The notes under the pieces are model-generated. The model worked only from the letters and a program-made list of their open reading frames with translations, did no database searches and was not told the origin of the DNA. The position numbers and the translations under genes are program-made. From Chaetoderma sp. LZ-2023a (taxonomy: Eukaryota > Mollusca > Caudofoveata > Chaetodermatida > Chaetodermatidae): 64,000 bases of DNA. The stretch spans positions 13,774,940 through 13,838,939 of the forward strand of contig CM067372.1 of the NCBI GenBank assembly GCA_034401795.1. The letters are read 5' to 3'. Below, piece by piece: positions 22,461-54,008 of the stretch (its first letter is position 1; each line of letters opens with the position of its first letter).

Positions 22461-22469
22461 CCGCCATCA

Positions 22470-26805: not shown

Positions 26806-27631
26806 GCTGTTCTTTTCAGGACTAGCTCCCGTCACAGTTGCTGGATACAAGTCAGCTTTGGCATCAGTTATCCCTTGTCTAGCCAACAGGGATAGTCCAG
26901 AGGTGGCCCAGTTAAATGTGATGTTGAAGGGAATGAGCAATCTCCGACTGAGACAACCGGTAGTCATTCCAGCCTGGAGTCTATCTTTAGTGCTTAATGT
27001 ACTGGCCAAGCACCCTTTCGCACCGTTGCGTTTGGCTAGTCTAAAGCATTTGACTCTAAAGGCGGTCTTTCTATTGGCAGCTTCCTCAGCTAGAAGGCGC
27101 AGTGAGATCCATGCGCTTTCGGCAGTGAGGAACCGATTTATTGTTTCTGGAGAAGGTCTGCATCTTCTGCCAAGAGCAGAGTTTATGTCAAAGAACCAAT
27201 CTTTGAGATATCCCGGCAAACCGATCATTATACCGAAGTTAACTAGGTTTGATCATGATGCCAGTGTCTGGTGCCCGGTCCGTGCTTTGACTAAGTACAA
27301 GAAACGGACTGACTCGTTACGGTCGAACGATAGACATCTGTGGATCTGCCATAAAAAGCCTTATGGCGCCGCATCCATGGATACTATCTCTCGTTGGGTG
27401 GTTGAATGCATTCAGACTACTCACGAGATGGCGACTGGGCACCAGGTGCAAGGCGTAAGGGCACACAATGTCAGAGGAATAGCCGCCTCGACCGCCCTTT
27501 ACAATGGTGTTCCGTTAGAGGACATCATGGCCGTTGCACAATGGCACTGTGAGTCCTCATTCACGGATTACTATATGAGGGATGTGTCAGACTCAGCCAA
27601 TCCACTCGCTTTAGCTGTTTTGAAACGATAG
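26616..27631 (+). pseudogene. DIRS copy 1 tyrosine recombinase, one frameshift
   Basis: The N-terminal DNA-binding part is read inside the RT ORF in another frame (FSQQAAYFIAAARRRSTFKS, NRFAHWCEEKGIDTF). After TAG at 26787-26789 it continues one frame over as QIADFLCELFFSGLAPVTVA. The catalytic part, to 27631, has SARRRSEIHAL (Arg I, about 27087), RAHNVRGIAAS (H-x2-R, about 27459) and QWHCESSFTDYYMRD (nucleophilic Tyr, about 27540). All catalytic residues are visible. The only defect I see is a one-base shift in AGCAAATAGC at about 26781. Known role: integrates the circular cDNA. Confidence 0.85.
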
Positions 27632-28147
27632 TTAGTGACCACACTGCTTTTCACCCTTTTCTCACTTTGGTAAGAAAAGAACCTAAAGCAGGCATGGTCA
27701 GGCGAGAGGATGTCAACCAGATTGTGTCACCGATGGCCGAACCGGTGAATGGTTGGAGGCGGTACGTCTGAAGTCCAATTATCATACGGTAATTCAATAA
27801 GTGAGAGTTTTTTGTATTATGTATATGTATCATGTTCATTCATCTTATATATTCATGCTCATTCCCAGGCTAATACATGGAATATGCAGGGAGTAGTTAA
27901 CCTTCTTGGCATATTTGTGTTTTCAGGCGAGATACATGTTCGTTAGTTCTCTCCCTTTTCTTAGGAGGAAAAAGGGGGGGGGGGGGGGCTGTGACGCGAA
28001 TGTGATTCGGTTCCGTGAACTTGACGGTCCTTTTAGGTCTCCGTTAGTCAAGTTTGAAGTCTAAAATCATTCTCCAAGGGGCAAAATTAGCATTTATGGC
28101 TTGCCCCTTCCCACCAGGTTACTGATCAAATCTGGTGTATATCAGAA
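27632..28147 (+). other. DIRS copy 1 3' non-coding region
   Basis: No ORF. Contains an approximately 14-G run near 27974. Homologous to 34178-34573 in copy 2. Confidence 0.6.
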
Positions 28148-28238
28148 GTAACAGAATGGTGAGTATTGATCGAAGGAGAATGCAGGAAATGTCAATTTCC
28201 CTTTCTCCGAGATCTAACAATACTCACCATTCTGTTAC
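28148..28238. repeat. Internal complementary region of DIRS copy 1
   Basis: 28148-28180 is the exact complement of the left end (21385-21417, 33 bp). 28181-28238 is the complement of the right end (28429-28486, 58 bp). It thus holds the circle junction, with the ends meeting between 28180 and 28181, as in DIRS1. Confidence 0.95.
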
Positions 28239-28292
28239 GGACCCAGCCTCCCAGACCCACGGAGGCAAGCCATAGTTTTCTCTTGTTTGGTG

Positions 28293-28449
28293 GCTATGCA
28301 AACAATATGAGCTCTATGGTAAACGGGTACTCGGCAGTTGGGAGCCGAGTACCCGGTTCCCAGGAGTCGGTAAAGCTTTCTAAGTCTATAATCCTAGAGC
28401 CGCTGTCAGGGCCAGCTGTATATCAGAAGTAACAGAATGGTGAGTATTG
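28293..28449 (-). repeat. Right inverted terminal repeat of DIRS copy 1
   Basis: Complement of 21397-21555 with few differences. Includes the hairpin GGGTACTCGGC...GCCGAGTACCC. Confidence 0.9.
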
Positions 28450-28486
28450 TTAGATCTCGGAGAAAGGGAAATTGACATTTCCTGCA

Positions 28487-29395
28487 GTCCGTCTGTGGCA
28501 GCCATATGGATAGGGTTCTGGCCCGTGTCCAGAGTTTTAGCTTGGACCTGAAGTTTAGAGAGTTACTGGATACAATCTATGCTAAGCAGCTCTTAACTAA
28601 AGGCCAACTTCCTGTGGTCTCTAGGGAGGTGCGGGCAAGATGTCGGATTCCTAGGGTGGCATACGACAGCTACGGCTCTGTCTCCATAGTCACTGAGGAT
28701 GATTGCTGGGTACAAGGTGTCCCAAGCGCTGGGGCAGATGCTCCTGCACTGGATAGGAGCCATGCCTCTACGGAGGAAGTCCTGTAACTGTGTGGTGAGG
28801 GTGGCTATGAATGCTGTCAACCACTCCTATCGCCTACTTCAGTCGGTATGGACTGAAGCGGGGCAAGCCGCCGGTGCTGCCAGCGGCGGTATCGTGCATC
28901 AATGACGGCCTTGTGCTGTTCATGGGCGCACTTGCCGGGTGCAAGCGAGAGTGACTAAGTCACGAAGGCAGATGGTCATTGGCCATATGCGTCTGGCTGT
29001 GGCTGTCAGGGATAGGTTGCTTGGAAACCTCCTGAATGGACCCAGTATCTTTGCTGGCCAAGCTCTGGCCATCCTAGAGGACTCGGTCAACATTGTACAA
29101 AACCGACTGGCAGTTAATATGCAGCTAGAGCTAGTGCACCAAGGGCACACGCTAGGGACTGCAGGCAAGCTGCCAGTGGGTCAGTCTTCAAATAAGCACA
29201 GTGGTAAGGGGAAGGTCTCCAAGGGCGGAAGGGAATGTATCATACCTGATGGTACGATAGATCCCTTACATCTGTCTGGACCGCACCTGTGCGACAGGAA
29301 CAGTGGTGCCCGTCGAGCCTTACAGGCCTAGGCCAAAGTGGCTCTATCTTTCCATCGTTAAGAAGGGGGGGACAATGGATCGGGAGCCAGCCACC
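28487..29395 (+). pseudogene. DIRS copy A, gag fragment 2
   Basis: Continues gag of copy A after copy 1: PSVAAIWIG, then a shift, LKFRELLDTIYAKQLLTKGQ, ASREVRARC-equivalent VSREVRARCRIP, NAVNHSYRLLQSVW and RQMVIGHMRLAVAVRDRLLG. It ends in a lysine-rich tail with HLCDRNSGARRALQA-stop. Internal deletions and shifts relative to copy 1. The RT start follows (ATGGATCGGGAGCCAGCCACC) and is cut at 29395 by copy 2. Confidence 0.8.
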
Positions 29396-29559
29396 TTCTC
29401 CTTCGATCAATATTTACCATTATATTACTCATTGATAATACATCTAGCTTGCTAGCTGGCTCTAGGAATCTAGATTTAGAAAGCTTTTCCAGCTCCTGGA
29501 GTACCCGTTTGCCAGAGAGACTCATTCTTGTTTTCATAGCAACAAGAGCAATACATGCT

Positions 29560-30440
29560 TTTTGCATATAGAAAGATCTTAGAGTTTTCTCAAAGCTTTC
29601 TTTGTGCCTAATTAAGCTAGTTTCGCACCAGGCATTATTGGATTTACAGTGGAAGGAACCACTGAAGCTCAGGTCGTATTCTTTCATGTTATTCTCCAGC
29701 ATATATGGAGACTTAAGTCTCTGAAATTTCATCTGTCCCAATTTCTAACCCCGAATCTGGAATGTGTGGTTACAACGAAATATGCCATATAAGATCACCT
29801 TCCTTTAACCCCATGGCGATCTGGCAGTAATATGAAACTAGCCGTTGGCTATACGTTTTTTAACACGGAAATTGGCGTATGTTGTTCAACCATATTATCC
29901 GAGCAGGTCACGTCACACCTGTGTTATCTCTCGGATTTTTGTGGTAAAGGAAATGTTTCATTAATTCGCGCATCTTATTCTTGGTGCTGCATGCGTTTTT
30001 GTACCATAAACTTTAGAATTATGTCAAGTTTTGTGTGTTAATCACGATCTGTCTGCATTGATCGATGATTTCAAAATTCTTGGTTAGAGATGTGTGTTCT
30101 GCGGTTTTACCGTGTTCTACAGCAGTTTGTTTAATGCCTTTTGTTGTGTCCTTCGCGTATCGTTTTGGCCTTCGTGTGAAAAGTATAATTTTGAAATTAA
30201 TTCTTAAATATACCGTGAATGTAATCGATATGGTTCCTGGTTCCATGTAATACATCCTTGAGGATCAATTTATGGGTGTATTAGTGGCCTGCTATCGTTC
30301 TTGTCACCAGATTATGCGACCTTGGTTGTAACATTGTGGGTGTGGGGTGCCGGAGGGTTAACATTTAATTTATGGTCAAAATATTTGAAAATTATTTGTC
30401 TGCTTTCCATTCCTGTTCCGTTCCGCTTTCTTATTTTAGG
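29560..30440 (+). other. DIRS copy 2 leader region
   Basis: Non-coding, homologous to 21600-22460. No promoter motif identified. Confidence 0.6.
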
Positions 30441-30442
30441 TT

Positions 30443-32420
30443 TTGTGCTTAATTTTTAGGCCAAGCCTACCCCCGCCATCGTGCTTTAAGTGCCACAAGT
30501 TTGTTACGGTTGCCTATAAGGACCATGCCTGTTTTAGATGCTCCAAGTGTAATGTTGACAATAGATGTAATGTTTGTGCAGTGTGGCCGGTTGAGTTTCT
30601 AGTTGGGTTCCTTGCCCAGAAGGACTTGGCTGGGTCTGACGCAGTGCGAAAAGAAATCGGGGAGCGTCCGTTTCGGGCCCTGTGGGCACTCCTCGTCTGA
30701 AGTCGGAAGCTTCGGAGATGGCACCTCCGGCATGGTTTGGGCTCGCTATGCATGGCTTCTTGCATAGCGTCCTGCCTACGCTGGTTTCATCTCTGATACC
30801 GACGACTAGGGCAATCTCTCCATGCCCGGTACGGACCCTGTCCTTAGACAGGGTACTGGACTGGTTACCGAGGGGCCATCTCGTATGGCTCCCTGGCCAT
30901 CCTGTCGGGCTCTGGCCTGGCCTGGCGGGTACTGCTTCTCTGCAGCCACCTCCGGGTGGTCCAGTGGCGGTAGCCGGTCCGTCGGGCATGTGAGTCATTT
31001 GCCAGGACGGGTCCAGTGTTTCCTCATCCGGTGACGACTCTTCGGTGTCTGAGGATGAGGAGGCCGAAGAGGAGAGGTTGTTGCGGCCTGAGATACCGTG
31101 GGTGGAGGTCAATTCCATCCTTGACGGAACTGCTCTCCATTTGTCTGGCTTGGTGCAAGCCATGGCAGCCACTCTGCCCATGGTTGAGGCCACACCGGTA
31201 CCGGGCACCTGTCCAGTGCTGGTTGGTTTGCCACCAACAACACAGTGACAGGTGCTGCTGGCCAGGCTTGGTACACGCCTATCTCGTCTGGTTCAGCGGC
31301 CACACGTGGGGTGCCATTGGCGCCCGTGTATGGCCACGGTTCCATAACAGCTACGGGTCAACGGTTTTCCGTGCGGGCCTACTCCATGGAACAGTTTGTC
31401 TCATGGGGTGGCGGCGGAACCATGCAGTACCGGTGTTGCTGGTTTGCCAGCAGTGGCCCCTAGCCGGGAGGCCGCTGCTGATAGACCCGTGAATACATCA
31501 ACAGGTGATGTATTCATGGGGGTGTCTTCTTCGGAGATGGACTGGTCTGAGATCCTGGCTTCGTTAGCCAGGGTAGACCCATCCATAGTTCCGGGAGAAG
31601 ACATGCCCCGTCCATCGGTTGCGTCGATTCGGATGGGGGTCTTGCCCGCGGCTCAGATTCAGTCCATTGGACTGGATCCACAGTTCAAGGAGTTGCTCGA
31701 TGCTATTTATAGCAATCAACTCTTGACCAAGAGCCAGCTCCCTGCAGCCTCTAGGGAGGTGCGGGCAAGGTGCCGTATTCCCAGAGTGGTGTATGAGCAC
31801 TATGGTGTGGTACCAACGGTCATTGAGGATGACCGTTGGGTTCTTGAGGTTCAGAGCGCTGAAGCGGATGGTCCCAAACAGGCGCTTGTGGACAGTTTCC
31901 AAGCACACAACGAGGAAGTCCTGTCCCTGTGTGATGAGGGAGTGAGGGCAGCAATGAATGCTGTCAATCACTCTTATCGCTTGCTTCATTCGGTGTGGGC
32001 TGAAGCTTGGGCAGGCTGCCCTGTGCCACCTGTGGTGCTGTCTTGTATAAACGACGGCCTGGTGCTGTCGATGGATGCTTTGGCCAGGGTGCAAGTGCAT
32101 GTTGCTAATCAGTTGACCATTCAACCTTCCTCCAAGAAACAGATTATTATTATTATTATTAGAGTGGAATAGAGCAAAGCGAAAGCCAAGCCAGCTTCTG
32201 CTATTGCTGGGCCTTCGCAGCCACCTGCGACTGAGAAGGCGAGGAATGTTGTGGCGGCTCCTGCCCAACCCAGTGGTGCTCCTGATTGCCCGAGAGGCGG
32301 GAAGGGCTAGGGGAATGGCAAGGGTAAGTTCACCAAGGGCGGAAAGAAGGGTATGGTGGCTCCATTCATATTTGCCTGGACTGCGCCTGTGCGACAGAAA
32401 CAGTGGTGCCAGTTAGACCG
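30443..32420 (+). pseudogene. DIRS copy 2 gag-like ORF, broken and shortened
   Basis: The N-terminal Cys-rich part is open here (30443-30700): CFKCHKFVTVAYKDHACF, RCSKCNVDNRCNVCAVW, then FLAQKDLAGSDAV. Other pieces: APPAWFGLAMHGFLHSVLP (about 30720), the acidic segment SEDEEAEEERLL (31048), and 31396-32172 with LDPQFKELLDAIYSNQL and ASREVRARCRIPRVVY. About 240 bp of the RNA-binding C-part are deleted, and a (TTA)n run (32143-32160) with stop follows. The tail resumes near 32176 and ends HSYLPGLRLCDRNSGAS (32365-32416). Frame changes are needed throughout. Confidence 0.75.
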
Positions 32421-34177
32421 TCAAGCCAAGACCAAAATGGTTCTCTCTCGTTAAGAGAGGGGGTGGAGCGGATCATGAGCCAGACACCCGCATTAGGCAT
32501 CAATGCGCCTATTGTGGATGGAAGGCTCATGCGTTTTATCGAGGCTTGGCGAGGTGTAACGTCAGACAGTCTGGTCCTGGTATGGATATCCCAGGGGTAC
32601 ATGCCAGAGGGGTAGGATTTTCCACCACAAAATGTGTCTTTGGCAGCTGTCTGGACCCCCGTACCAAGGGAGCGAGACAAGTTAGAAGCCATTCAAAACG
32701 AAGTGTCAGGTTTGATTCTGAAGGGAGCAATAAAACTAGCAAACCATAGCACTCCAGGCTTCTATTCAAACATGTTCCTTGTCCCCAAGAGCACAGTGGT
32801 GGGGGTGGGGGGGGGGGGGGTGGATACCCATACTCAATCTCAGGCCATTGAATTGGTATATCCATACGCCTAGGTTTCAGATGGAAACTCCGAGATCGGT
32901 AATGGCAGGATTGAGGAAAGGAATGCGGTGTGTGTTAATCGATCTGAAAAATGCATAGTTCCACATTCCAATGAACAGGGGTTGTCACAGGTTTCTGAGA
33001 TTGGCATTTCAGAATCAGGTATGGGAGTTTATAGTCCTCCCGTTCGTCCTGTCACCAGCCCCAAGGGTTTTCACCAGAGTGGTCCTAGCGGTGACAACAT
33101 TTCTCAGATGAGAGAATGTGTCGCTTTACACCTACATAGATGATTGGCTTATCAAGGCGGATACGCCAGCCGGGTTAGGAGTGGATAGCGCTCTGACTCT
33201 GAAATTGCTTTCAGATCTAGGCTGGATAGTCAACAGGGAGAAATCCGAGTTGACACCCACTCAACACTTCGTTTATTTGGGGATGCGATTAGATCTCGAG
33301 GAAGGCATGGTTTACCCACCAGAGCCCAGAGTGGTGTCTCTGTTAGCCATCCTTTTTCAATTGGGAAACCACATTCAGGCGAGGAGGTTTCTTCAGATGC
33401 AGTCAGCTTTGGCATCAGTTATCCCTTGTCTAGCCAACAGGGATAATCCAGACGTGGCCCAGTTGAATGTGATGGTGAAGGGAATGAGCAATCTCCGACC
33501 GAGACAACCGGTAGTCATTCCAGCCTGGAGTCTATCTTTGGTGCTTAATGTACTGGCCAAGCACCCTTTCGAACCTTTGGGTTCGGCTAATCTAAAGCAT
33601 CCGACTCTAAAGGCGTTTTTTCTATTGGCAGCTTCCTCAGAAAGAAGGCGCAGTGAGATCCATGTACTTTCAGCAGAGAGGGACCGATTTATTGTCTCCA
33701 GAGGAGCTCTGCGATTGCTGCCAAGAGCAGAGTTTATGTCAAAGAATCAATCTGAAATATCCCGGCAAACCGATCATTATATCAAAGCTAACAAGGTTTT
33801 ATCGTGATGCCAGTGCCTGGTGTCCAGTCCGTGCTTTGACCAAGTACAAGAAATGGACAGACTCTCTACAGTCAAATGATAGACATCTGTAGATCTGCCA
33901 TAAGACGCCATATGGCGCCGCATCCATGGATTCTATCTCTCGTCGGGTAGTCGAATGCATTCAGACTACCCATGAGATTGCGACTGGGCACCAGGTGCAA
34001 TGTGCTAGGGCTTAAGATGTTAGGGGAATAGCCGCCTCAACTGCTCTATTCAATGGTGTCCCGTTAGAGGACATCATGGCTGTTGCACAATGGTACTGTG
34101 AGTCCTCTTTCACAGATTACTATATGAGGCACATGTCAGACTCAGCCAATCCACTCGCTTTAGATGTTTTGAGATGA
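32420..34177 (+). pseudogene. DIRS copy 2 RT fused in frame to recombinase remnant
   Basis: RT start with GGRLMRF equivalents, stops (TAG at about 32610) and a G-run shift near 32806. The open part 33118-33807 has TYIDDWLIKA, KSELTPTQHFVYLGMRLDL and IQARRFLQM. This runs directly into SALASVIPCLANRDN of the recombinase, so RNase H, the methyltransferase-like part and the recombinase N-terminus are missing by one deletion at about 33398. Recombinase pieces include RRRSEIHVL (with ERRRSEI for ARRRSEI), a stop at about 33891, and CESSFTDYYMRHMSDS to 34177. The conserved RAHNVRG reads RA-stop-DVRG. Confidence 0.85.
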
Positions 34178-34573
34178 TAGTTTATGGCCACACTGCTCTC
34201 CTCCTTTTGGTACTTTGAAAAGCAAAAGTAGTAAGAACAGACATGGTCAGGTGAGAGGAAGTCAACTGTATGGGACATATCTGGGCGAAAGTGTGTTGGT
34301 TGGTGGCTCCACATCTGCAATCCATAATTCATGACGCATATTTGTGTTTTCAGGCGAGATGCATATGATCGTGCATTATCTCCCTTTCTTAGGAGAAAAG
34401 GGGTGGGCTGGGGAGAGCGGTAATGTGAATGTGATTCGGTCCCAAACTTGTCGGTCTTTTTAGGTCTCCGTATGTCAAGTTTAAGTCTACGTTCTTTCTC
34501 CAGGGGCAAAAGACGCTATGTATGGCTTGCCCCTTCCCACCAAGTTACCGTCTAAATCTGGTGTTATCAATGA
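34178..34573 (+). other. DIRS copy 2 3' non-coding region
   Basis: Homologous to 27632-28147. No ORF of note. Confidence 0.55.
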
Positions 34574-34664
34574 GTAATATAATGGTAAGTATTGATCGAA
34601 GGAGAATGAAGGAAATTTCAATTTCCCTTTCTCCGAGATCTAACAATACGTACCATTATATTAC
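34574..34664. repeat. Internal complementary region of DIRS copy 2
   Basis: 34574-34606 complements the left end 29396-29428. 34607-34664 complements the right end 34858-34915. Lengths are the same 33 + 58 bp as in copy 1. One difference is visible (ACGTACC here against the ATCGTAAGT end). Confidence 0.92.
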
Positions 34665-34915
34665 GGACCCTGCCTCCCAGCCCCACGGAGGCAAGCCATT
34701 GGTATTGTCTTGTTTGGTAGCTATGCAAACAATATGAGTCTCTCTGGCAGACGGGTACCCGGTTGTTGGGAACCGGGTACCTGGTTCCAGGAGCCAGTAA
34801 AGCTTTCTAAATCTAGATTCCTAGAGCTAGCTAGCAAGCGAGCTGTATTATCAATGAGTAATATAATCGTAAGTATTGTTAAATCTCGGAGAAAGGGAAA
34901 TTGAAATTTCCTTCA

Positions 34916-35806
34916 ATCTGTGGGCGTCAATGTGCCTATCGTGGGTGGAAGGCTCATGCGCTTCGCCGAGGCTTGGCAAAGTGTGACGTCAGACAGTCTG
35001 GTGTTGGGATGGATATCCCAGGGTTACATGCCAGAGTGGTGGGACATTCCAGCCCAAAACCTGTCATTGGCACCTGTCTATCCATACTAAGGGAGCCAGA
35101 CATATTAAAAGCCATTCAAAACGAAGTGTCAGACTTGCTTCTGAAGGGAGCAATAAAGCTAGCAATCCAGAACACGCCAGGCTTCTATTCGAACACGTTG
35201 CTTGTCCCCATGAGAACAGGGGGAGTGGAGACCCGTACCATTGAATTGGTTCCTCCAAAAGCCTCGTTTCCAGATGGAAACACCGATGTTGGTAATTGCG
35301 GGGTTGAGGAAAGAAATGTGGTGTGTGTCGATCGATCTGAAAGATGCATATTTCCACATTCCAATGAAGGAAAGCTGTCACAGGTATCTATGATTCACAT
35401 TCCAGCATCTCGCTTGGGAGTTTCTAGTACTCCCATTCGGCCTGTCAACCACCCCGTGTGTCTTCACAAGAGTGGTCCCAACCCTGACAGCATTTCTAAG
35501 GAAGAAAACGTGGCATGTCACACCTACATAAATGACACGCCAGCCATGTTAGAGATGGATACTTTTCTGACTCTGAAATTGCTTTCAGAGCTAGGATGGA
35601 TAGTTAACAAGGAGAAATCTGAGTTGACACCAACTCAACATTTCATCTATTTGGAGATGCGATTCGATCTAGAGAAAGGCATGGCAAACCCATCAGAGTC
35701 CAGACTGGGTTCTCTGAAAGCCATCCTCAAGAGGAATCGAGTGGGAAACCACATTCAGGCGAGGAGGTTTCTTCAGAGCCTCCATGGAGCAGGTTATCCC
35801 GTACAC
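34916..35806 (+). pseudogene. DIRS copy A, RT fragment
   Basis: RT of copy A resuming after copy 2: GGWKAHAL in a shifted frame, then KAIQNEVSDLLLKGAIKLA, NTPGFYSNTLLVPM, the IDLKDAY-equivalent DNA near 35330, YINDT where YIDDW is expected (35526), KSELTPTQHFIYLEMRFDLE and IQARRFLQS. Several shifts. Cut at 35806 by a hAT element and resumed at 37794. Confidence 0.85.
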
Positions 35807-37785
35807 TAGAGATGGGTGGTTTCCCGATAAAACCGGGAAAATCGCGATATTATTGTTATTGTTATCGTCATCGTCTCATTTCTAAAAACTGCCAATATCG
35901 TCAAATACCGTCAGTGACGGTATTGACAATTTATATATTGTAATAATTGGATAATAAAGCATTTCATGCGAATTTAACGAGTCTGGTCTCTTCATTTCCG
36001 TATTCATGGTAGTCAAAAGCGATCATTTTCGGCACTATTATTGCCGTAAATATATGTCCATGTGTTATATACATAGCCCTACTGGTCTTAGTATAGTTAT
36101 CCTTCCATGCTCAATTAAATGTTGTTCCAATGAAGACAAGTTAAATCTGAAAATCGTAGTTGCTGACAACGTTGAATACGCAAAATAGCAGCCATTTGTA
36201 AAACAAAAATAAACTCAACTCAGCCTCGTTTTGATTATATTATTGGAATACCACCTTCGCTTTCCATAGCTGATGACGCGATTGATGTCATTACAAGGGA
36301 ATAAGACAACGACCATCCAAATATCCTAGCGGGATAAATTCACGCGCTAACTATGACGATAAATTCAAGCGATCTAATTAAACCGGTGAAGCCATAACTG
36401 TAATCCCTCTATTCTTCGCTTGTTCAAGAATAATTCACCCCACACGTGTATAAATGTCCCCTTGGCTGAGTATTGATCAGTCTTTACCAGTAATACCATT
36501 GATATGCTGAATGTGCTAAAGGCAGCCGCAATATGAATGAAACAAGCCCGGCTGATTATATTGAAAATGATTTGATTAAAATTTATTGCGCCATGACAAT
36601 AATTTCCAATCAAATTGTCTCCAAAATATTCAGCTAAGATCGGACAAGTTTTTAATAACTAATAACCTCTTAGATCATCTTTTCTAGAAGACAGCAAATC
36701 TTATAGGGTGAAATGTATTGTATTCACTAATTTCACGCGTTCTGGGTCATTGGCTCAGGTGACTATTGCGCCATCGATCTATAGGGCTATGATTTAACCA
36801 CTTTCAAGACGAATGCAGAGGCTTTATGGAAATATTAGTTAGAGGAAATAATAAATAAAGAGCTGATTAGTTTGAAAACTTTATGACCCAAAAGTTGTTA
36901 CTGACATCGACAGCAACAACTTTGAGTCAAATTGTTTTGAAATAATCTGTATAAATAGCTGATGATTATTTATTTTCACACACTCTGGTAAGTCCAGTTT
37001 ATAGGATGAAGTGTGTGATTGACTTTCATGCCGCAGTCAATAGGTCGACAATTTTCTAATGGTGTGGAATGAGGGCTGGGCGGGCAGGTGGGGTTGATTA
37101 GTCAATTCCTTATAAAACTTGACCATTTTCAATAATTAACCGTGCAGTACCAGAATTTTGCACGTCAAGTATAATAATTTAATCAGTGATCGACGATTCT
37201 TATCTACAATTCTACATTCTCTATTTTATTGCTAAAAAAATTCAGGTCATTTTGTTATCTTTATACATGCATACACGCGCGCAGCTGATCGCGTCTTCAG
37301 ACCTGGTTTGTCCATTAATTGATCATGTGCCTAATCACGTGGTCTTTCTCACGGAGCATTCATTATAAGCTTTCAATAGTAATAATAAAAACAGCTCGTG
37401 AATGCTCCACTAAACACTGCACCCTGATGACCTGGTTAAAACCAATGAAAGATACTTGAAGTTTTTAACCAATCAGATTGGACCCTTGGGATTTCCCATG
37501 GAGATTCCTGCGCACACAGTGACAGAGTTAAGGACACTTAGGCGCATCTTCCTCTTCACAATAACAAAGTAAAATGCAAAAAGGCGAGAAGAAAAAATAT
37601 TTTATTTGGTGCCGAGGCACAAATATAATACAATGTTTAGGCTTTGTTTGTTTATACATCTAAAAAGGATGCCTATTCATAAATTGGCCATATTAACCAT
37701 ATCATATCCAAAATTATTCCAAATACCGCTGTATTTTCCACAGATACCGTTATCGTCATCCCAATGGCAATACCGTCCAGCTCTA
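35807..37785. mobile_element. hAT-like non-autonomous element, 1979 bp
   Basis: Ends TAGAGATGGGTGGT and, complemented, TAGAGCTGGACGGT (11 of 14 match). Flanked by CCGTACAC (35799-35806) and CTATACAC (37786-37793): 8-bp target duplication with two transitions. Removing it restores the DIRS copy A frame (IPYTTLMRRPI). No transposase seen. Internal sequence is AT-rich and contains the inverted pair GGAGCATTCATTA / GTGAATGCTCC around 37353-37410. Confidence 0.85.
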
Positions 37786-44247: not shown

Positions 44248-44442
44248 TTTAACACTTTCACCCATGAATTGCACATATCTCATTTTCAATGCAACAATAC
44301 AGGAAAACTGTTGAATATTTTGGAAATTGAATTTGACTGTAAGCCATTGCTGCCTTAGGCAAATTAATGCCAAAATATTGAAGAGAATAAGTTTTATATC
44401 GTAAAGAATATTTTTTTTCAGGATTTGTCGGTGAAAGGGTTA
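44248..44442. mobile_element. MITE, TTAACCCTTTCACC family 2, degenerate
   Basis: Ends TTTAACACTTTCACCC and GGTGAAAGGGTTAA. The core GTTGAATATTTTGGAAATTG and GCCATTGCTGCCTTAGG match 55298-55510. Confidence 0.7.
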
Positions 44443-44488
44443 ACAGTTTTTTTACATGTCCTAGGCAAGAACTACAGCATTGTAATGC

Positions 44489-45112
44489 TCTGGAAAACTA
44501 ACACAAACTACAGAGTGTTTACTCTGGGAGGCCTCTTCCAATGGAAAACTAACACAAACTACAGAGTGTATGCTCTGGGAGGCCTCTTCCAATGGAAAAC
44601 TAACACAAACTACAGAGTGTTTACTCTGGGAGGCCTCTTCCAATGGAAAACTAACACAAACTACAGAGTGTATGCTCTGGGAGTCGTCTTCCAATGGAAA
44701 ACTAACACAAACTACAGAGTGTTTACTCTGGGAGGCCTCTTCCAATGGAAAACTAACACAAACTACAGAGTGTTTACTCTGGGAGTCGTCTTCCAATGGA
44801 AAACTAACAAACTACTGAGTGTACTCTGGGAGGCCTCTTCCAATGGAAAACTAACACAAACTACAGAGTGTATGCTCTGGGAGTCGTCTTCCAATGGAAA
44901 ACTAACACAAACTACAGAGTGTATGCTCTGGGAGTCATCTTCTAATGGAAAACTAACACAAACTACAGAATGTATACTCTGAGAGTCATTTTCCAATGGA
45001 AAAATAACAAACTACAGAGTGTATGCTCTGGGAGGCCTCTTCCAATTGAAAAATAACAAACTACAGAGTGTATGCTCTGGGAGGTCTCTTCCAATGGAAA
45101 AATAACAAGTGT
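44489..45112. repeat. Minisatellite, 51-bp unit, ~12 copies
   Basis: Unit begins GGAAAACTAACACAAACTAC and includes CTGGGAGGCCTCTTCCAAT. Two variants (GAGGCC and GAGTCG) are interspersed. The unit length is a multiple of three, so long false ORFs run through both strands. Located in the intron. Confidence 0.97.
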
Positions 45113-46289: not shown

Positions 46290-46905
46290 TTTGTCAGAAA
46301 CTGTTTCTGCGGTGGTCTTGACGAGTCAATAGCTTGCACAGTGCAGTTGTTCTGACGAGCCAGAAACTGTCTCTGAAGTGCTCTTGATGAATCAAAAATT
46401 GTCTCTGCAGTGGTCTTGACGAGTCAGAGACTGTCTCTGAAGTGGTCTTGATAAGTCATAAACTGTCTCTGCACTGGTCTTGATGAGTCAGAAACTGTCT
46501 CTGCAGTGGTCTTGATGAGCCAGAAACTGTCTCTGAAGTGGTCTAGATAAGTCATAAACTGTCTCTGCAGTGGTCTTGATGAGTCCGAAACTGTCTCTGC
46601 AGAGGTCTTGATGAGTCCGAAACTGTCTCTGCAGTGGTGTTAATGAGCCAGAAACTGTCCCTGAAGTGGTCTTGATGAGTCAGAAACTGTCTCTGCAGTG
46701 GTCTTGATGAGTCGGAAACTGTCTCTGCAGTGGTCCTGATGAGCTAGAAACTGTCTGAAGTGGTGTTGATGAGTTAGAAACTGTCTCTGCAGTGGTCTTG
46801 ATGAATCGGAAACTGTCTCTGCAGTGGTCTTGATGCGTCAGAAACCGTCTCTGCCGTGGTCTTGATGAGTCGGAAACTGTCTCTGCAGTGGTCATGATGA
46901 GTGTC
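46290..46905. repeat. Minisatellite, 32-bp unit, ~19 copies
   Basis: Unit AGAAACTGTCTCTGCAGTGG followed by TCTTGATGAGTC, with AAGTGG variants and one shortened copy near 46750. Confidence 0.97.
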
Positions 46906-46971
46906 ATTTTGCAGGACAAGAAAAGTATATTTTTGACAATTTACAACTGCGCCAGTCATTCCAGTTGTGAA
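46895..46971. mobile_element. Half of a family 1 MITE
   Basis: TTTTGCAGGACAAGAAAAGT and GCCAGTCATTCCAGTTGTGA correspond to one arm and centre of the MITE at 58949-59184. Confidence 0.55.
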
Positions 46972-48337
46972 TTTTTAATCCACCTGGCCAGAATGGCCAA
47001 GTGAACTAGTTAATGCCATGGTGACTGTCCGTCCATCATCTATCCATCCGTCATCTCTCAACTTTTGCTCTAAAACATTTCTCCTTGTACATGTCATAAG
47101 TCACTTGGAAAATTTTAACCAAATTTGCCTGGACGGATCCTATGGTTTTAGGCTCTAGAACTTCTATGTTCAGAATTTTGATTTGCCAATTTTTTGGGTG
47201 ATAATGTATAAATCTGAATTTATACAAATTTACAGAAAATTCTCAAAAATGCGTCTCCACCATAACCACTTGATGGATTTCAAACAATTTGTCTGGAAGG
47301 ATTCTATGGTGCTAGGCTGCAGAAGCACTCTTCATAATCTTGTTTGGTCAATTTTTTTGGTGAAAATCTTTACCGGACATTGTCAAAATTCATCTCTTCT
47401 TTAGCCTCTTGGTGGATTTCAACCAAATTTGGCTACTATACATGACGTAACCCTATCATTATGCGCTCCAGAACATATTTAAAAACTTTGATAAGTTTTT
47501 TGGGTGAAAATTCATGAAAAATTTACTGGAAATTGTCAAAATGTATCTCTTCCTTAGCCGCTTGGTGGACATGGTGGATTTCAACCAATGTGGCTAGAAT
47601 GACCCAATGGTGGTACGCTCAAGAACTTCTATTCAGAATTTTGATTGGTCATTTTTGGGGGGTAAAAATCTTATTAGATTTGATGAAAAATGTACTGGAA
47701 ATTGCCAAAAAAGCATCCTACTTTAAACCACTTAGTGGATTTTAAACGTATTTGGCTGAAAGAATCCTATGGTACTGTAGTAGGCTGTAAATTCAGAATT
47801 TTGATTTGTCGATTGTTTTTGGGCAATCATCTTGGATTTTCTGAAAATTTTCTGGAACTATTTAAAATGCTAATACTTAATCAATGGCCCGATTTCAACG
47901 GAACTTTGCTAGTACTATCTTCTTTGCATTAGGCTTCAAAATATCAAAAGGAACTGTTGAATGCTCAATTGTTTTGGTGACAATCTTATTATTATCCAGA
48001 AACCCCTTAAAATGTATCTCGTTAAACGACTTTGCAGATTTTACCCAAATTTGACTGACCAGTGGTAGCATCTAGAAGTTCTATTCAAAATTTGGATTGG
48101 TTGATTTTTTGGTGGCCATTTTGGATTTTCCGAAAACTTTCTGTAACCATTTAAAACGCTACGTGCTTCTTGATCAATTTTAACAAACCTTGGGTATAAC
48201 GATCCTGTGGTGGTACTGCAGTAGGCTTCAATGTATCAAATGAGAATTTTGATGGGTGAATTGTTTTGATGGGCATCTTGGATTTTCCGAAAATTATCCA
48301 TCGTGTCTATTTAAATGCAAATGGACAGTGACTAAGC
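46972..48337 (+). repeat. Diverged relative of the TTTTAGCYCACC repeat
   Basis: Starts TTTTTAATCCACCTGGCC and AATGGCCAAGTGAAC. The body repeats GGATTTCAACCAAATTTGGC and TTTTGGGTGAAAATC blocks at about 200-260-bp spacing, without a clear closing end. Non-coding. Confidence 0.6.
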
Positions 48338-48405
48338 GAAAACTTGAATTATAAAAGTTTTACTACCAGAGGTAGATGATGATTACCAATCTGCGTGATT
48401 GATGC

Positions 48406-50560
48406 CTATTGGATCCATACAATGTAGTTGATGAATCCAGAATTTTTCGCGGTCCTTGCGGGATCGTGACGTAATACTTCAATGATTCTGTGGTTGACAT
48501 CTGTGGGTCCGTGGTTGGGAAGATTAAAATGTTGTGCTACAGGTGTGTCTTTGTTGTTTTTAATATCCCTGATGTGTTCTTTGATGCGAACCTGGAATTC
48601 CCGTTTAGTTTCACCTACATATTGTTTAAGGCATTTCTTGCAGGTGAGTAAGTAAATGACATTCATGGTGTGGCAGAATGTTTTTGTTTTGATGTAATAT
48701 TTTAGCCCAGTGTGTGAGCTTTTGAAACAGTTTGTGCTGTTCATGTTTTTACAAAATATGCAGTTGTTTTTGGCGCATGGATGTATAGGGTTCGCTATGC
48801 TTTTCCCTTGTTGTCCAAATTTCCTTGGGTCTGTGAATTTAGCGGTGACTAATGTGTCCTTAAAGGATGGATTGCGTCTGTGGCCAAAGATAGGCGTCTG
48901 TAAATGTGGCCCGACATTTTGGGCTTGACTGTAGTTGTGGCCAATGGCGTTTGATTATTTTTTGGACTAGTTTACTGGGTTGGTGGAAATCAGTGATACA
49001 TGGTATCCGAGTGTTGATTTCCTTAGTTGGTTTAGGCAGGAGTAGGTCTTTATGGTTTTGTTGAATTGCTCTGTGTAGGCTAGTAATGAGGGTATCTGTT
49101 GGATATCCTCTTATTGCATAGTGGTGTACCATTTCATGTGCGTTTTTAAGGAAATCTGTTTCTCTACTGCAGATTCTTCGTAGTCTCAAAAATTGTCCGT
49201 ATGAGCTCGCTTGTTTAGAAGATTTTGGATGGGCTGATGAGTAGTGTAGATTTCCATGTGTATCTGTTGGTTTGGTGTAGAGGTCTAAGCCTAAGTGTCT
49301 ATTTGGGAGAATAAACACTTTGGTGTCCAAAAAATTGATGGATTCTGTGGATTTTTCTGCTGTGAATTTGATCGTCGGCACGGTGCGCGTTATTCATGTG
49401 TTATGAAGTTTTCCAGTGAGTCGGATCCTTTGGTCCAGATTATAAAAATATCATCGATGTAGCGGTAATATAGGGCTGGCTGTACTTCAGCTGTCCTAAG
49501 TAGTTTTTCTTCGAGTTGGGCCATGAAGATAATGACGATAATGAAGATAATGAAGATAATGAAGATAATGAAGATAATGGCATAGCTCGGTGCTAATTTC
49601 GTACCCATGGTTATGCCGCCAATTTGGAGATAATGTTCATCATTAAACTCAAAGTTGTTGCAGGTGAGCACTATTTTAAGTAATGTGAGTAATCTCCGTG
49701 ATGTTAATGTGCCGGGGCAGCTATGTACTCATAGATGTTGGGAGACAGCTCTGAGTCCTTCAGTGTGAGGGATGTTGGTGTATAGTGATGTAACATCCAT
49801 AGTAACTAGAATGGCGTGTGGTGGGATAGCGCCAAAAGTTTCTAGTTTATTTATGAAATCAGTGGTGTCCTGAATATATGATTTAATTTTGTGAAGATGA
49901 ATTTTGATATGTTCATCAACAAAGCTACTGATGTGTTCAGTAGGACTTCCATTGCCACTGATGATGGGTTTACCACAGGTGAGCGGGCCGTTCAGTTTTT
50001 TGTGTATTTTAGGAAGTAAGTAGAACCTGGCCGTACGTGGGTGGTCTGTTCTGAGACCGTTAGCTGTGTCTCTCGTGATTTCACCACTGAGAATCATGTC
50101 CGTGATGGCGGTTTCTACTTTCTCTGCGTGGTACGTGGTGAGATCTACAGTTTGTTTAATGTAGTAGTTGGTGTCACTAAGTTGTCTGATTGCTTCCTGT
50201 TTGTATAACTCCGTATCTTGGATGACGGTGGCCTGACCTTTATCAGCTTTTTTAATGACAATGGTTTTGTCATTTTTTAGCTGAGTTATAATCTTTCTCT
50301 GTGTGTTGGAAAGATTCCCATTGTTGTACCTGCGGTGGGCTTTCTTATTGATGTCATGTTTGACGGATCTGATAAAAGCATCTAGAGTGGCGTCGTTACC
50401 TGGGTTTGGTGTCCAGGTACTAGTTGGTTTGAATTTACGTGACAGTTTGTCCATAAAATTATCAGTTAGATTATTATTTGGTGTTACGGCTATGTCAGAT
50501 GTGGATGTGTTGTCGTTTTCCCAGTAGCTCTGCTCTAGAAAACTTTTATTGATTATTTGG
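48406..50560 (-). pseudogene. Penelope-like element RT with GIY-YIG endonuclease, broken
   Basis: N-terminus from about 50546 (FLEQSYWENDN) with LKNDKTIVIKKADKGQATVI and FYLLPKIHK. RT motif A VTMDVTSLYTNIP (about 49790), then one in-frame TGA (49729-49731). Motif B GTKLAPSYA is followed by an in-frame (IIF)n expansion, and motif C is YRYIDDIFIIW (about 49437). A frameshift near 49380 precedes PTIKFTAEKSTESINFLDTK. A second near 48915 precedes the HPCAKNNCIFCKNMNSTNC zinc-binding-type segment. The C-terminal GIY-YIG domain has VIYLLTC, QYVGET and R-x3-EH (48550-48660). C-terminal endonuclease places it among canonical EN-positive PLEs. Known role: target-primed reverse transcription. Confidence 0.92.
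49529..49575. repeat. 9-bp tandem expansion inside the PLE RT
   Basis: Five to six copies of GAAGATAAT (one GACGATAAT). On the coding strand they read (IIF)n, inserted between motif B and the following helix, preserving the frame. Confidence 0.9.
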
Positions 50561-50660
50561 TTACCAACACTCCCTACCCTTGGTCACGCTTATGACGCCA
50601 TAACCATGATGTCACACCTGATATTACGTCACAAGTACGTACTAACGTTGCGCTACACCA

Positions 50661-51335
50661 ATGTCCCCACACACATACTGCACAGCCTCCTTCGCCCACA
50701 GAACTTCTCGCCGACGTCATATCAGGACCATACATGGGAAAAAGGGCTTCTGGTTCTGCGAAATCTGCAATCACCACTACAGCAGGACAGAAGATTTCCG
50801 GAGACACCTTGGAGAAATACACAAAATTTTCCCAACTACAGCAGAACTGATCATCACATCCAACAATGTAGACAGTACCATTAACCAAGCATCAATAGAC
50901 GTAGCTCTAAGACAGAGCCCGCACCGGTCCCCAGCACCGCCAACGTCTCCTGTCGGGTCACGATCAGCTTCAGACCATATCCTGAATGGTGGTATTCTCC
51001 CGATTAACATCTTGGAATTAGAAAATCCACCAAATCATTATTCCTCTCCCCTTTCAAGCTGCAGAGAAACACCAAACTCCGACCTAATTAGCGGCACCAC
51101 ACCCCCTGAGGTGTTCGACCCAGGCTTTAACAGCCCTGACAGCGGGGTCTCAGGACCAACATTCGAGGAAGATTTCCTAGAGGATCAAAACACCCTGTCA
51201 CTTGATGACCCCTTCCTCCCTCTCTCACTGAACAACGAAGAAATTGATTTCCTCATTCCTGAAGAAGAGGCGAGCCGTGAAGATGGCGAACTGTCTGCAG
51301 ACAATCTGCTCCTTATCCTGAACCAATTGGACTAG
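50661..51335 (+). CDS. Two-finger C2H2 protein ORF with acidic tail, antisense to the PLE
   Basis: 224 codons from ATG at 50661; upstream in-frame stop at 50643. Finger 1 is degenerate (YCTASFAHRTSRRRHIRTIH, one Cys). Finger 2 is complete: FCEICNHHYSRTEDFRRHLGEIH, C-x2-C-x12-H-x4-H. The rest is Ser/Pro-rich and then acidic (EEDFLEDQNTLSLDDPFLPL; EEIDFLIPEEEASREDGEL), ending in LLLILNQLD. A perfect donor consensus AG|GTAAGA follows the stop at 51339-51346. Could be an ORF carried by the insert, a captured host fragment, or a separate small gene. No known PLE protein that I can recall looks like it. Confidence 0.6.
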   Translation: MSPHTYCTASFAHRTSRRRHIRTIHGKKGFWFCEICNHHYSRTEDFRRHLGEIHKIFPTTAELIITSNNVDSTINQASIDVALRQSPHRSPAPPTSPVGSRSASDHILNGGILPINILELENPPNHYSSPLSSCRETPNSDLISGTTPPEVFDPGFNSPDSGVSGPTFEEDFLEDQNTLSLDDPFLPLSLNNEEIDFLIPEEEASREDGELSADNLLLILNQLD

Positions 51336-51434
51336 AGGTAAGAAAATTATTATTCTCTGCCTCCGCTTGTTCTAATAATTTTTTTTTTAAACATCCAAAA
51401 AACGTGGATGATAAGATGTATCACTTGTATATCA

Positions 51435-51499
51435 TTTCTCCTCTGATGAGTATAACCAAACTTGGTACGAAACGCTAAGAGTCAGGATCACACTGGAAA
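51435..51499 (+). ncRNA. Candidate hammerhead ribozyme (type I)
   Basis: CTGATGA core at 51443-51449, GAAA at 51469-51472, cleavage triplet GTC at 51481-51483. Stem I: TCCT (51439-51442) with AGGA (51484-51487), extended by TTTC (51435-51438) with GAAA (51496-51499) across an 8-nt internal loop. Stem II: GTA/TAC closing, a TAA bulge, CCA/TGG and a four-base loop. Stem III is very short (C-G, G-A mismatch, C-G, loop TAA), as in hammerheads of Penelope-like elements and Schistosoma. All core invariants are present. Activity not shown. Confidence 0.7.
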
Positions 51500-51723
51500 G
51501 AATACATTAACTAGTATTCGTTAGCCAATCTTACTCCCACTATACTTCTCCATTAGACCATGATCATGGACACTCAATAAATTTATACTAAATTTATTAA
51601 GAGAGCCCTAATAGACATAATGGCCACCTACCAGTGGCCCTCTCAAGCCACCATACCAAAAACTTTAGTATCACAAGATTCCAGCTGCACAAACATGGCT
51701 GTATCCAATATAGAATGATACTA

Positions 51724-52003
51724 CCGGCTACACCACACTGTAAACCGGCTACACCTTTCAAAATCTTTACAATAATCCGGCTACGGTATCTACCTCACTG
51801 GCTACATACCAAACCAATCCGGCTACGGGATGACCCCATCCCGGCTACATCTTTCAAGTTTCTTACCAATCCGGCTACTGTAGCTACCTCTACTGACTAC
51901 ACACCCAGCCAATCCGGCTACGGGATAACCTAATCCCGGCTACACAAAGCCATAATCCGGCTACAAATTGTCTATCCCGGCTACAAAATCAAAATCCGGT
52001 CAC
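51724..52003 (+). promoter_or_regulatory. CCGGCTAC motif array with ~21-bp spacing
   Basis: CCGGCTAC at 51724, 51745, 51777, 51819, 51841, 51871, 51914, 51936, 51957 and 51977. Near matches at 51798 (CTGGCTAC), 51892 (CTGACTAC) and 51996 (CCGGTCAC). Steps are 21, 32, 21, 21, 22, 30, 21, 22, 22, 21, 20 and 19 bp, i.e. two or three turns of B-DNA. Sequence between motifs is not conserved, unlike a simple minisatellite. Looks like a protein-binding array upstream of a TATA box. Confidence 0.65.
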
Positions 52004-52031
52004 ACCGCAATGTGTAGCCGCATTTGGAAAG

Positions 52032-52038
52032 TATAAAA
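52032..52038 (+). promoter_or_regulatory. TATA box (TATAAAA)
   Basis: GTATAAAAGG lies 29 bp after the last motif of the array. A start site would fall about 52062-52067. No ORF follows closely, and the 52130 direct repeat ends the insert about 65 bp downstream of the predicted start. Confidence 0.5.
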
Positions 52039-52184
52039 GGAAGACGCAAACTGTGTATTGGCATCCAGACTCAACTTGCACATAAGTTCGCGTCAGGACA
52101 AACAACGCGCAATCAAGCTTCTCATAGAAGAAAACTTGAATTATCTTGACCATTAATTATCCTTTGATGTTGAAGTCGGGAGGA

Positions 52185-52345
52185 AGAACAAGCTGAGTAG
52201 TTGTCTTGAGAAATGATCATTTGCAGGACAATAAAAAGCTACTTTTGGAAATTTCAGTGGTATAATAATACATGTAAATTTGCAAAAATAGTCTCTTGTC
52301 AGCGAAAATTTTAATTTTGTTGAGAAATCGTAACCATTACAGTAT
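52185..52345. mobile_element. Family 1 MITE remnant
   Basis: GATCATTTGCAGGACAATAA, TTTCAGTGGTATAATAA and AAAATTTTAATTTT arms resemble the element at 58949-59184. Ends lost. Confidence 0.5.
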
Positions 52346-52434: not shown

Positions 52435-54008
52435 ATTATTATGGTTTGTACTTAAACTATTGCTGCCATGGTTGCCAGACCTCTTTTAATACATTGGACA
52501 AAGCACTCCTTCACACCAAGATGTGTGAGAAATTATCCTTCAAACCAAGGCACACAAGACAAGATATTACAGTCATACCTGATCCACTACAGAATGAAGT
52601 GTCAGCCAGATCTGTGGAGAAGGAACGAGCTAGTGATAAACCCAGTCCAGATGAAGATGATGCTGCTGATATTAGGACAGATAAGGTAAATAACAAAGAA
52701 CAGAATAAGATCAACGATGGTGTGTATCATAAAGATGAAATTGGCAAGAAGCCAGTAGACAGTGCTACAAATGTCATATCCAGGAAAGTTGTTGTTAAAA
52801 GTGAAGCGGAAAGTCCTTCAAAGCAACTTATAAGGAATTTAACAGATAAATGTGATGTTATCTTTTACGATCGTGAAACAAACTGTGTGGTAAAGATAGA
52901 GCCTGATGACACAGGTACATCAGAGAGTCGCTCAAACTGTTTGGTAGAGAAAGAGCCGGATGTTCCAGTTCCATTGCATACACAGTCTAAGGCACCCAGC
53001 ACTACGTATGATTTGGAATGTGACGATATCCCTGTTGATCCACATGACGATGTTGTGGAAAGTGATTTTGATGAGGATGACGATTTACACCTAGAAAGTT
53101 TTGAGCAGCCAGGTGCTAATACTCTTATGTTGAATTCTGATGTACATGCTATGAGATCAAATTATGATTCTACTGTTTCTGATTCAGTTAATGCAGTAGT
53201 TCCTGATGATTCCACATTTGGTCGCCAGTCACCTGTTGTTGGTCACCAGTCCCGTGTTGTTGGTCGCCAGTCCCCTGTTGTTGGTCGCCAGTCCCCTGTT
53301 GTTGATCGCCAGTCCCCTGTTGTTTCTAAGCCATTAGTTGCATGTAATGCTGCTCAAGCACCAACATATGGTACAATTAATATTAAAGCTGAAGTGGATG
53401 ATGATTATGGTGACTCTAATTACATAAATATGAAAGCATTTGGCATATATAAGTCTTTGAGTATAAAACTTGAACCGTTATCTACAGTAGATGATAAACA
53501 AAATGTAAGCAAATCGATCCGTGACGTGGAGACGGTATGTGCTTATAGTGCCATCCATGCATTGGCACACACAGTAGCAAGCATCGATGATACTGTCAAA
53601 TCTCTTAACACGTTTCATCCTGCTCCTCCTCCTCCAGATTTAGTTGATATAGCCAACAGAGCTAAGCCCATTATCCCTGAAATAACACAGTATAATAGAC
53701 GATTAACTGGTCATGTCACAGTTACCGTACCATCATTAAATAAAGGCCACACACAGAAACAAGGTAACAGTGCTGCACATCGGACTCATGTCAAATCAAG
53801 TTCCAAGGTGACACCAGAAGTGAGAAGGTCTGTTAGAGAGCATAGGGCTGTTAAGAGAGCTTTCCCTGGTGCTACTGATTCTGATGTCCTCAGTGCTGTT
53901 GCGAGGCATGAGGAGGAGGAGGATCTTGATAATCGGTCAAGACGACTCAGTTCGAGCAAACAAATCCATATTGATAAGTCTGATCGCACGTACACGCCTC
54001 ACCACTAA
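52435..54008 (+). CDS. C2H2 zinc-finger protein gene, last coding exon
   Basis: Acceptor TTGTTTTTACAG ends at 52434. The two leading bases complete an Asp codon with the G from 42002, giving a continuous 852-residue protein. The eighth finger lies right after the junction: C339/C342/H355/C359 (C2HC). The rest is low-complexity and acidic (DSDFDEDDDLHLESFEQ-like stretch near 206-220 of the exon) with a short GRQSPVV repeat (residues ~591-625). Four sites fit the sumoylation consensus (hydrophobic-K-x-E): K450 VKSE, K482 VKIE, K646 IKAE, K673 IKLE. The C-terminus is Arg/Ser-rich. Stop TAA at 54006-54008. A transcription-regulator role is inferred from composition only. Confidence 0.85.

Follow-up and report, generated by a model that had tools for sequence, protein, structure and literature searches.

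We examined a stretch of 64,000 nucleotides from the caudofoveate mollusc Chaetoderma sp. LZ-2023a (contig CM067372.1, positions 13,774,940 to 13,838,939 of the forward strand; hereafter the window), in which positions 48338-52144 are a single insertion of an endonuclease (EN)-bearing Penelope-like element (PLE) bounded by a true target-site duplication (TSD). PLEs are little-studied retroelements, and the control of their promoters is hardly understood. The insertion holds, on the minus strand, a decayed element body with pieces of a reverse transcriptase (RT) and a GIY-YIG EN and, on the plus strand, a block that we call the pseudo-long terminal repeat (pLTR), which carries an open reading frame (ORF) for a zinc-finger (ZF) protein, a putative hammerhead ribozyme, an array of CCGGCTAC sites, a TATA box and a leader (Table 1). 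A sequence-only reading of the window had proposed that a 15-bp direct repeat marks the target duplication of one insert, with a minus-strand PLE ORF and, divergent from it, a plus-strand C2H2 ORF with an acidic tail, a hammerhead-like motif and a promoter-like block. The repeat, the C2H2 ORF, the hammerhead pattern and the block of eleven array sites and TATA box are all present; the divergent arrangement and the integrity of the PLE ORF did not survive comparison with other copies.

Table 1. Features of the insertion, in window coordinates
Feature	Position	Strand	Remarks
Left TSD copy, GAAAACTTGAATTAT	48338..48352	.	14 or 15 bp, first G ambiguous; single copy at the paralogous site
Inverted, 5'-truncated PLE body	48351..50538	-	RT fragments and GIY-YIG in several frames, decayed
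Hairpin B (CTACC-TCT-GGTAG on the minus strand)	48363..48375	-	End of the PLE body
GIY-YIG endonuclease piece	48406..48744	-	About 25 bp missing near the 3' end relative to other copies
pLTR, recurrent unit	50539..52130	+	ZF ORF, hammerhead, array, TATA box, leader
Zinc-finger ORF	50661..51335	+	224 aa; first Cys pair lost in the window copy
Putative minimal type I hammerhead (TCCT-CTGATGA ... GAAAC ... GTC/AGGA)	51439..51487	+	Predicted cleavage after C51483
CCGGCTAC array	51724..51984	+	10 exact sites and 1 with one mismatch; spacing 20-43 bp, mostly 20-22
Single inverted site (GTAGCCGC on the plus strand, one mismatch)	52014..52021	-	Directly upstream of the TATA box
TATA box, TATAAAAG	52032..52039	+	Five distant families agree with the window in 63 of 65 cells at 52030-52042
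Hairpin A (CTTCT-CAT-AGAAG)	52118..52130	+	In the leader, right insert end
Right TSD copy	52130..52144	.	Exact 15-mer repeat

We searched the 2,438,752,110 bases of the genome with the pLTR (window 50565-52144) and obtained 47 matches, with 40 of 1400 candidates scored; 36 of the 47 end at query positions 1564-1573 (window 52128-52137), where the right 15-mer begins. The earlier proposal would have fallen had other copies stopped near 50560, lacking the ZF ORF or ribozyme; what recurs is the 50539-52130 block, ZF ORF included, with a constant right end. For the pLTR comparison we used 30 rows, the window included, in which 29 other loci were aligned to the window. The pLTR 5' end is intact in 20 rows, and in 17 of them it is adjoined by the 3' end of a PLE in the same orientation (16 by script, and L028 with a 38-bp piece). 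The junction joins window 48351-48352 to 50539, with an 11-bp overlap, in 16 of the 17; about 20 bp have been lost there in L036. The three exceptions are the window itself, where the body is inverted, and L016 and L017, which have nothing adjacent and look like one locus on two contigs. None of the 10 rows with a shortened pLTR 5' end has an adjacent same-strand body, and two (L033 and L038) have an inverted one. The arrangement of pLTRs on both sides of an ORF, or of tandem copies, is seen in L026, where a pLTR end, the 5' part of the ORF, RT/EN and a full pLTR stand in line and give a unit of about 4.8 kb; the pLTR also leads into the 5' ORF in L016 and L032. These same-strand junctions and the L026 layout identify the block as the pLTR of the element and the window copy, with its opposed layout, as the product of an inversion. 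Left parts inverted like that of the window occur in L010, L012, L021, L024, L028, L034, L036 and L038. The unit, which is well supported by the compared copies, thus reads on one strand as pLTR promoter, leader and RT/EN ORF, followed by a pLTR with ZF ORF, hammerhead, CCGGCTAC array, TATA box and leader.

That the pLTR block is instead a separate element, lying beside the PLE in the window by chance, is suggested by the opposite orientation of the two in the window and by L014, L015 and L018, which are pLTRs without a body inside one common TSD. Against this, 17 of 20 rows have the same-strand junction, which in 16 falls at one place within a base or two; the pLTR continues into the 5' ORF in L016/L017, L032 and L026; and in nine rows TSDs enclose body and pLTR together. 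A chance neighbourhood is thus extremely improbable. A tandem array of 2789-bp RT/EN units was also encountered (L065/L066, G000:C9:13233185-13243402). Its first and last units are identical over 1851 bases and no pLTR was detected in the unit read; it is either a recent amplification or an assembly artefact.

The 15-mer GAAAACTTGAATTAT is exact at 48338 and 52130, the only two matches in the window at up to two mismatches. By itself the pair would be weak evidence for a TSD, since at least two near matches were found in 6 of 100 shuffles of the window and the genome holds 17 copies of the 15-mer, compared with 4 for the reversed control; seven other genomic occurrences, fetched with 1.5 kb on each side, had no match to the element. 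The proof comes from the repeats at the predicted ends of other copies and from an uninterrupted paralogous site. An exact repeat was found at the predicted ends in 12 of the 30 pLTR rows (15 bp in ten, 14 in L024 and 11 in L034). L014, L015 and L018 have one 15-mer TSD in common and are probably one insertion, later copied, so that the 12 rows amount to about 10 independent insertions with a TSD. We then used the joined flanks as a query for an empty site. Of 2029 candidates 40 were scored, yielding 41 matches: the window accounts for two, 38 extend over the left flank only and stop near 48324, and one, L078, crosses the join. L078 aligns without interruption, with 115 of 157 columns identical (73%) and one copy of the 15-mer counterpart; it is a diverged paralogous empty site and not the other allele. 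The span of L078 across the join and the flank matches indicate that the element landed in a dispersed repeat, one diverged relative of which lacks it. This repeat surrounds the insertion at about 48180-48324 and 52145-52290, and the 38 further left-flank matches are 79-90% identical. Farther out, tandem repeat tracts that are probably satellite-like lie at 44425-44996 (with long frames on both strands) and 46500-46919, and G+C is 45-57% in window 22001-36000 compared with 34-45% in the other 2-kb bins.

The ends of the insertions are as regular as their order. On the right, 28 of the 29 alignments of other loci stop at window 52128-52136, beside hairpin A or a slightly altered form of it; the L033 alignment stops earlier, and hairpin A is present further along. 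In L016, L017 and L032 this place is not an insertion end, because the copy continues past it into the 5' ORF. On the left, the insert end lies 3-13 nt outside hairpin B in all nine rows that combine a TSD with an inverted left part. The position of the insert ends beside two small hairpins suggests two internal start sites for cDNA synthesis.

The minus-strand PLE expected by the sequence-only reading is there, with its GIY-YIG domain, in the form of broken pieces instead of one ORF and without its 5' part. The GIY-YIG piece scored 25.1 bits in Pfam (cut-off 22.6) and follows the RT in gene order; RVT_1 reached 16.4 bits, under the cut-off of 29.6, and the YIDD motif was recognised by eye. 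A 413-aa RT piece had no RT match in Pfam or the PDB. Other copies match up to window 50529 and then extend into a 5' ORF of about 1.06 kb that is missing from the window copy. Since its ORF is truncated, its RT lies in several frames, its EN is about 25 bp short and its ZF has lost the first Cys pair, the window copy is dead.

The window has one instance of the full hammerhead pattern, which appeared in 0 of 100 shuffles, and one of a looser core, which appeared in 8 of 100. The core is present in 29 of the 30 rows and the full pattern in 23, in the sense of the RT body in same-strand copies. The pattern is lax, with minus-strand matches in L051 and L052 and off-place matches in L068 and L075, and only matches at the conserved place were counted. 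A scan of 8 kb with Rfam gave nothing at E<=1; Rfam as the only test was dropped as too strict for the minimal form. Minimal type I hammerheads have been reported for PLEs (PMC7229834).

In other copies the ZF ORF encodes a protein that includes MDRFVCPLCTASFAHRTSRRRHIRTIHEKKGFWFCEICNHHYSRTEDFRRHLGDIHK and has two C2H2 fingers (MDRFVCPLC...) joined by a linker of canonical length, then a variable stretch and an acidic-hydrophobic C-terminus; several copies are frame-broken. The Pfam zf-C2H2 scores of 22.1 bits in L010 and 18.6 in L051 are both below the cut-off of 25.2. Among PDB sequences ADR1 matches best (E 1.8e-4), and a Zif268 chimera also ranks among the best. A search with the protein, in which 150 of 1300 candidates were scored, gave 151 matches; many have open frames, and the listed identities go down to 48%. 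L052 (G000:C15:116643352-116646757) shows a deletion that fuses the RT frame in phase with the ZF frame into a 710-aa open frame, and another ZF match (C9:10384983-10385651) sits within an open frame of 1095 aa. Between the pLTR start and the ZF ORF, at 50580-50632, we noted by eye half-sites resembling cAMP response elements (TGACGCC, ATGTCAC and TTACGTCA), which are a possible separate promoter of the ZF ORF.

We asked how this gene varies among 27 copies (the 30 rows minus three near-duplicates), taking as shared those variants found in at least four copies and excluding the class found in two or three (21 nonsynonymous to 20 synonymous). Shared variants were 22 nonsynonymous to 41 synonymous, compared with 126 (7 of them stops) to 51 among singletons, against a neutral expectation of 2.83 (Fisher P 8e-7). 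They fall on 40 of 216 third positions, 10 of 216 first and 11 of 216 second positions; in the non-coding part 54 of 783 positions have them, so this part is itself constrained. Read from these variants, old ZF copies decay neutrally while source elements were under purifying selection. The ratio of nonsynonymous to synonymous divergence (dN/dS) was 0.07-0.22 between divergent copies with computable dS, silent sites being saturated in many pairs, and 0.16-0.32 within the window family, with one pair at 1.00. By region, the corresponding ratio of proportions (pN/pS) was 0.21-0.30 in the acidic-hydrophobic C-terminus and 0.29-0.56 in the linker. PLEs have been reported to capture host sequence between pLTRs (PMC3846280), and the ZF ORF might be such a captured host gene, carried as a passenger. 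Purifying selection across families, together with the same place and order in two clades (see below), makes this very unlikely.

The CCGGCTAC motif occurs ten times in the array and twice elsewhere in the window, with 0.49 occurrences expected. We compared this region in more distant relatives, ten loci at 46-75% ZF identity. A same-strand EN lies upstream in seven of the ten, and the hammerhead pattern and the TATA box, both at the expected place, occur in six each; L050 and L058 are without hammerhead and array downstream. Others are rearranged: part of RT/EN is lost from L052, an RT piece is inverted in L053, and L054 shows a ZF piece upstream that is inverted. In L053-L057, identity to the window was 84% for the hammerhead, 97% for the TATA stretch and 78% for the leader, and 35-40% for the spacers (35% for the one between hammerhead and array). 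CCGGCTAC sites were kept at 74%, compared with 47% for the sequence between them, a difference of 0.269 that none of 260 shifted masks reached (highest 0.242), with the caveat that motifs may anchor the alignment, which would favour them. A 520-aa host-like ORF without a Pfam match (window 52446-54008, plus strand) starts about 400 bp past the TATA box, which points towards it; the pLTR could serve as its promoter.

With the RT as query, 101 of 12980 candidates were scored and 105 matches obtained, their identities ranging from 100% to 60%; these revealed a second clade whose RT is about 65% identical to that of the first. One of its units, L068 (in the 66% RT band, flanked on C3 by tandem copies), carries EN followed by a ZF ORF, a hammerhead-like motif, an array and a TATA box. 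The array consists of ten CGGTTAC sites, eight of them CCGGTTAC, with GTAACCGG upstream of the TATA box at the place corresponding to the inverted site of the window. The L068 protein is 49% identical to that of L010 over the fingers. As a query it had 150 of 1917 candidates scored, with 151 matches; seven of these are at 98-100% identity, which indicates that clade 2 was active more recently. Among three other members, CGGTTAC sites number five in L077 and four in L075, where finger 1 is damaged, and L076 has hammerhead-like motifs and an array that is broken off. Six further loci at 64-65% RT identity (L069-L074, chosen by position) had no ZF or array in the fetched stretch and so lend no support.

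The two clades differ in the helix residues (-1/3/6) that would contact DNA: finger 1 is H/S/R and finger 2 R/D/R in clade 1, compared with Q/G/R and R/E/G in clade 2 (L068). Judged post hoc by the general finger code, the clade-1 array satisfies three of the four contacts predicted to be strong, whichever way it is read, and either way the base that differs between the arrays is faced by a residue that differs. This fit makes binding of the array by the ZF protein only possible. The motif is invariant within clade 1, so that a closer comparison of how fingers and array covary was dropped. Indirect support for binding of its own array comes from the footprint in distant families, from the conserved fingers and from the different array in the clade with different fingers; the ZF protein probably binds the array of its own promoter.

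Two other roles for the protein were weighed. It could be an accessory to retrotransposition, acting like ORF1 as a nucleic-acid chaperone or as a template binder, with the array serving a host transcription factor. ORF1-type nucleic-acid binders are encoded by other retroelements, and here the ZF ORF stands downstream of RT/EN in a possible bicistronic RNA, with conserved fingers. We hold this rather unlikely, because the two fingers of canonical length best match DNA-binding transcription factors in the PDB, the C-terminus is maintained as in activators, and fingers and array both differ between clades. Alternatively, the protein might repress or limit the element as a copy-number control, or shield it from silencing. 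Nothing in the sequence fixes the sign of regulation; acidic-hydrophobic C-termini, however, are typical of activators, and we consider repression or shielding unlikely.

We therefore favour, as the likely explanation of the comparisons above, a dead copy of an EN-bearing PLE with an extra gene in its pLTR, whose product would bind the element's own array and activate its promoter. The structure of the element is well supported: the copies compared establish its recurrence and order, its ends and TSDs, and the selection on its ZF gene; the autoregulation we infer. Transcription would begin just past the TATA box, cross RT/EN and continue over the ZF ORF that the next pLTR carries; the hammerhead would cleave this read-through RNA on the 3' side of that ORF. 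A protein of the element would nick AT-rich DNA, and cDNA synthesis would begin at internal sites, next to hairpin A for one strand of the target and next to hairpin B for the other; such two-site initiation would yield the fixed ends, the TSD of 14-15 bp and an inverted left part as in the window copy. The ZF protein, with its two fingers and acidic-hydrophobic C-terminus, would bind the array of its own pLTR and activate that promoter. This proposal fits what is described for a PLE of Anolis, in which synthesis starts internally beside a stem-loop and both strands are cut and extended (PMC11167929).

Several observations weigh against this interpretation. The start sites of the Anolis element are equal on both strands, where we propose two separate ones; its hammerhead, which requires its protein in vitro, is dispensable there for insertion, where we assign the hammerhead a role at the RNA end; and no RNA-seq reads ended at its hammerhead cut site (PMC11167929). 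Here, the hammerhead reached 11.9 bits with Rfam Hammerhead_1, below the gathering score of 34, helix III has a single base pair, and RNAfold favours another fold (-6.3 versus +0.3 kcal/mol for the hammerhead). A TSD of at least 9 bp was absent in 16 of the 30 pLTR rows, two more being left out of the test, and none was found at an end of L011, L013, L022, L026 and L029 after extension by 2.5-3.1 kb upstream (L031 was extended as well, with the wrong flank and so without a valid test). Within the window family, motif columns vary no differently from spacer columns (4.2% and 4.0%). About a quarter of random 8-mers would fit the finger code equally well by a hand estimate, single copies vary in the helices (L077 has E for G at position 3 of finger 1, L054 has M for R at position -1 of finger 2), and, because the motif is constant within clade 1, the shift of array and fingers is one contrast. 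A third PLE unit, L067 (RT 63%), has neither ZF nor hammerhead; it belongs to a tandem family of period 5679 (G000:C5:56350000-56353600), and a weak GCGGGTA repeat precedes its TATA box.

Whether the protein is a dedicated PLE trans-activator, whose fingers and array of about ten sites changed together, with (AHRTSRRR, RTEDxRR) and CCGGCTAC in clade 1 and (AQRTGLRR, RLEEARG) and CCGGTTAC in clade 2, seems to us an evenly balanced matter for the PLEs of this genome. If true, every PLE clade would possess a transcription circuit of its own, in which the hammerhead defines the end of the RNA behind the gene for the activator. For PLEs, an activator that is encoded by the element and has its own array of sites would be new within the literature searched, where we found no ZF gene described in a PLE; an earlier description is possible, since Repbase and most of the subscription literature lie outside that coverage. 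Element-encoded DNA-binding proteins that act on repeated motifs of their own element are known in Spm TnpA and VANDAL VANC. The putative own-motif protein described here is like them, whereas those elements are DNA transposons; no PLE case of such a regulator was found in the literature searched.

The other known systems were compared through the available parts of the reports cited. Animal retrozymes have type I hammerheads and tandem copies in common with our element; they are small and non-autonomous, whereas it encodes RT/EN and a ZF protein (PMC7229834). The terminons of bdelloid rotifers are PLE relatives with hammerheads and extra ORFs, but they are large and attached to telomeres, and a ZF protein is not among the accessory ORFs described in that part of the report (PMC6431247). 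Neither terminon trait is found here: the unit is about 4.8 kb (L026), and the window copy is an internal insertion, with a TSD, inside a dispersed repeat. The closest systems are the EN-bearing PLEs of the Penelope/Poseidon type, PAc of Anolis (PMC11167929) and Pen of Adineta (PMC3846280), which share with our element an ORF for RT and GIY-YIG, pLTRs, a hammerhead, defined internal start sites, inverted end pieces comparable to those found here (PMC3846280), tandem copies, TSDs and AT-rich targets. In PAc the hammerhead lies at the start codon and two adjacent start sites serve both strands alike, whereas here the hammerhead precedes the TATA box by about 550 bp and the end hairpins stand at opposite ends of the RT/EN ORF. 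Hairpins A and B predict where cDNA would be primed by each target strand, a step later in the insertion whose validation is left for the future in the in vitro work on Anolis (PMC11167929). Compared with Adineta Pen, the TSD is 14-15 bp instead of 8-10 bp, and the pLTR, at about 1.6 kb instead of 193-218 bp, carries a ZF gene and an array (PMC3846280).

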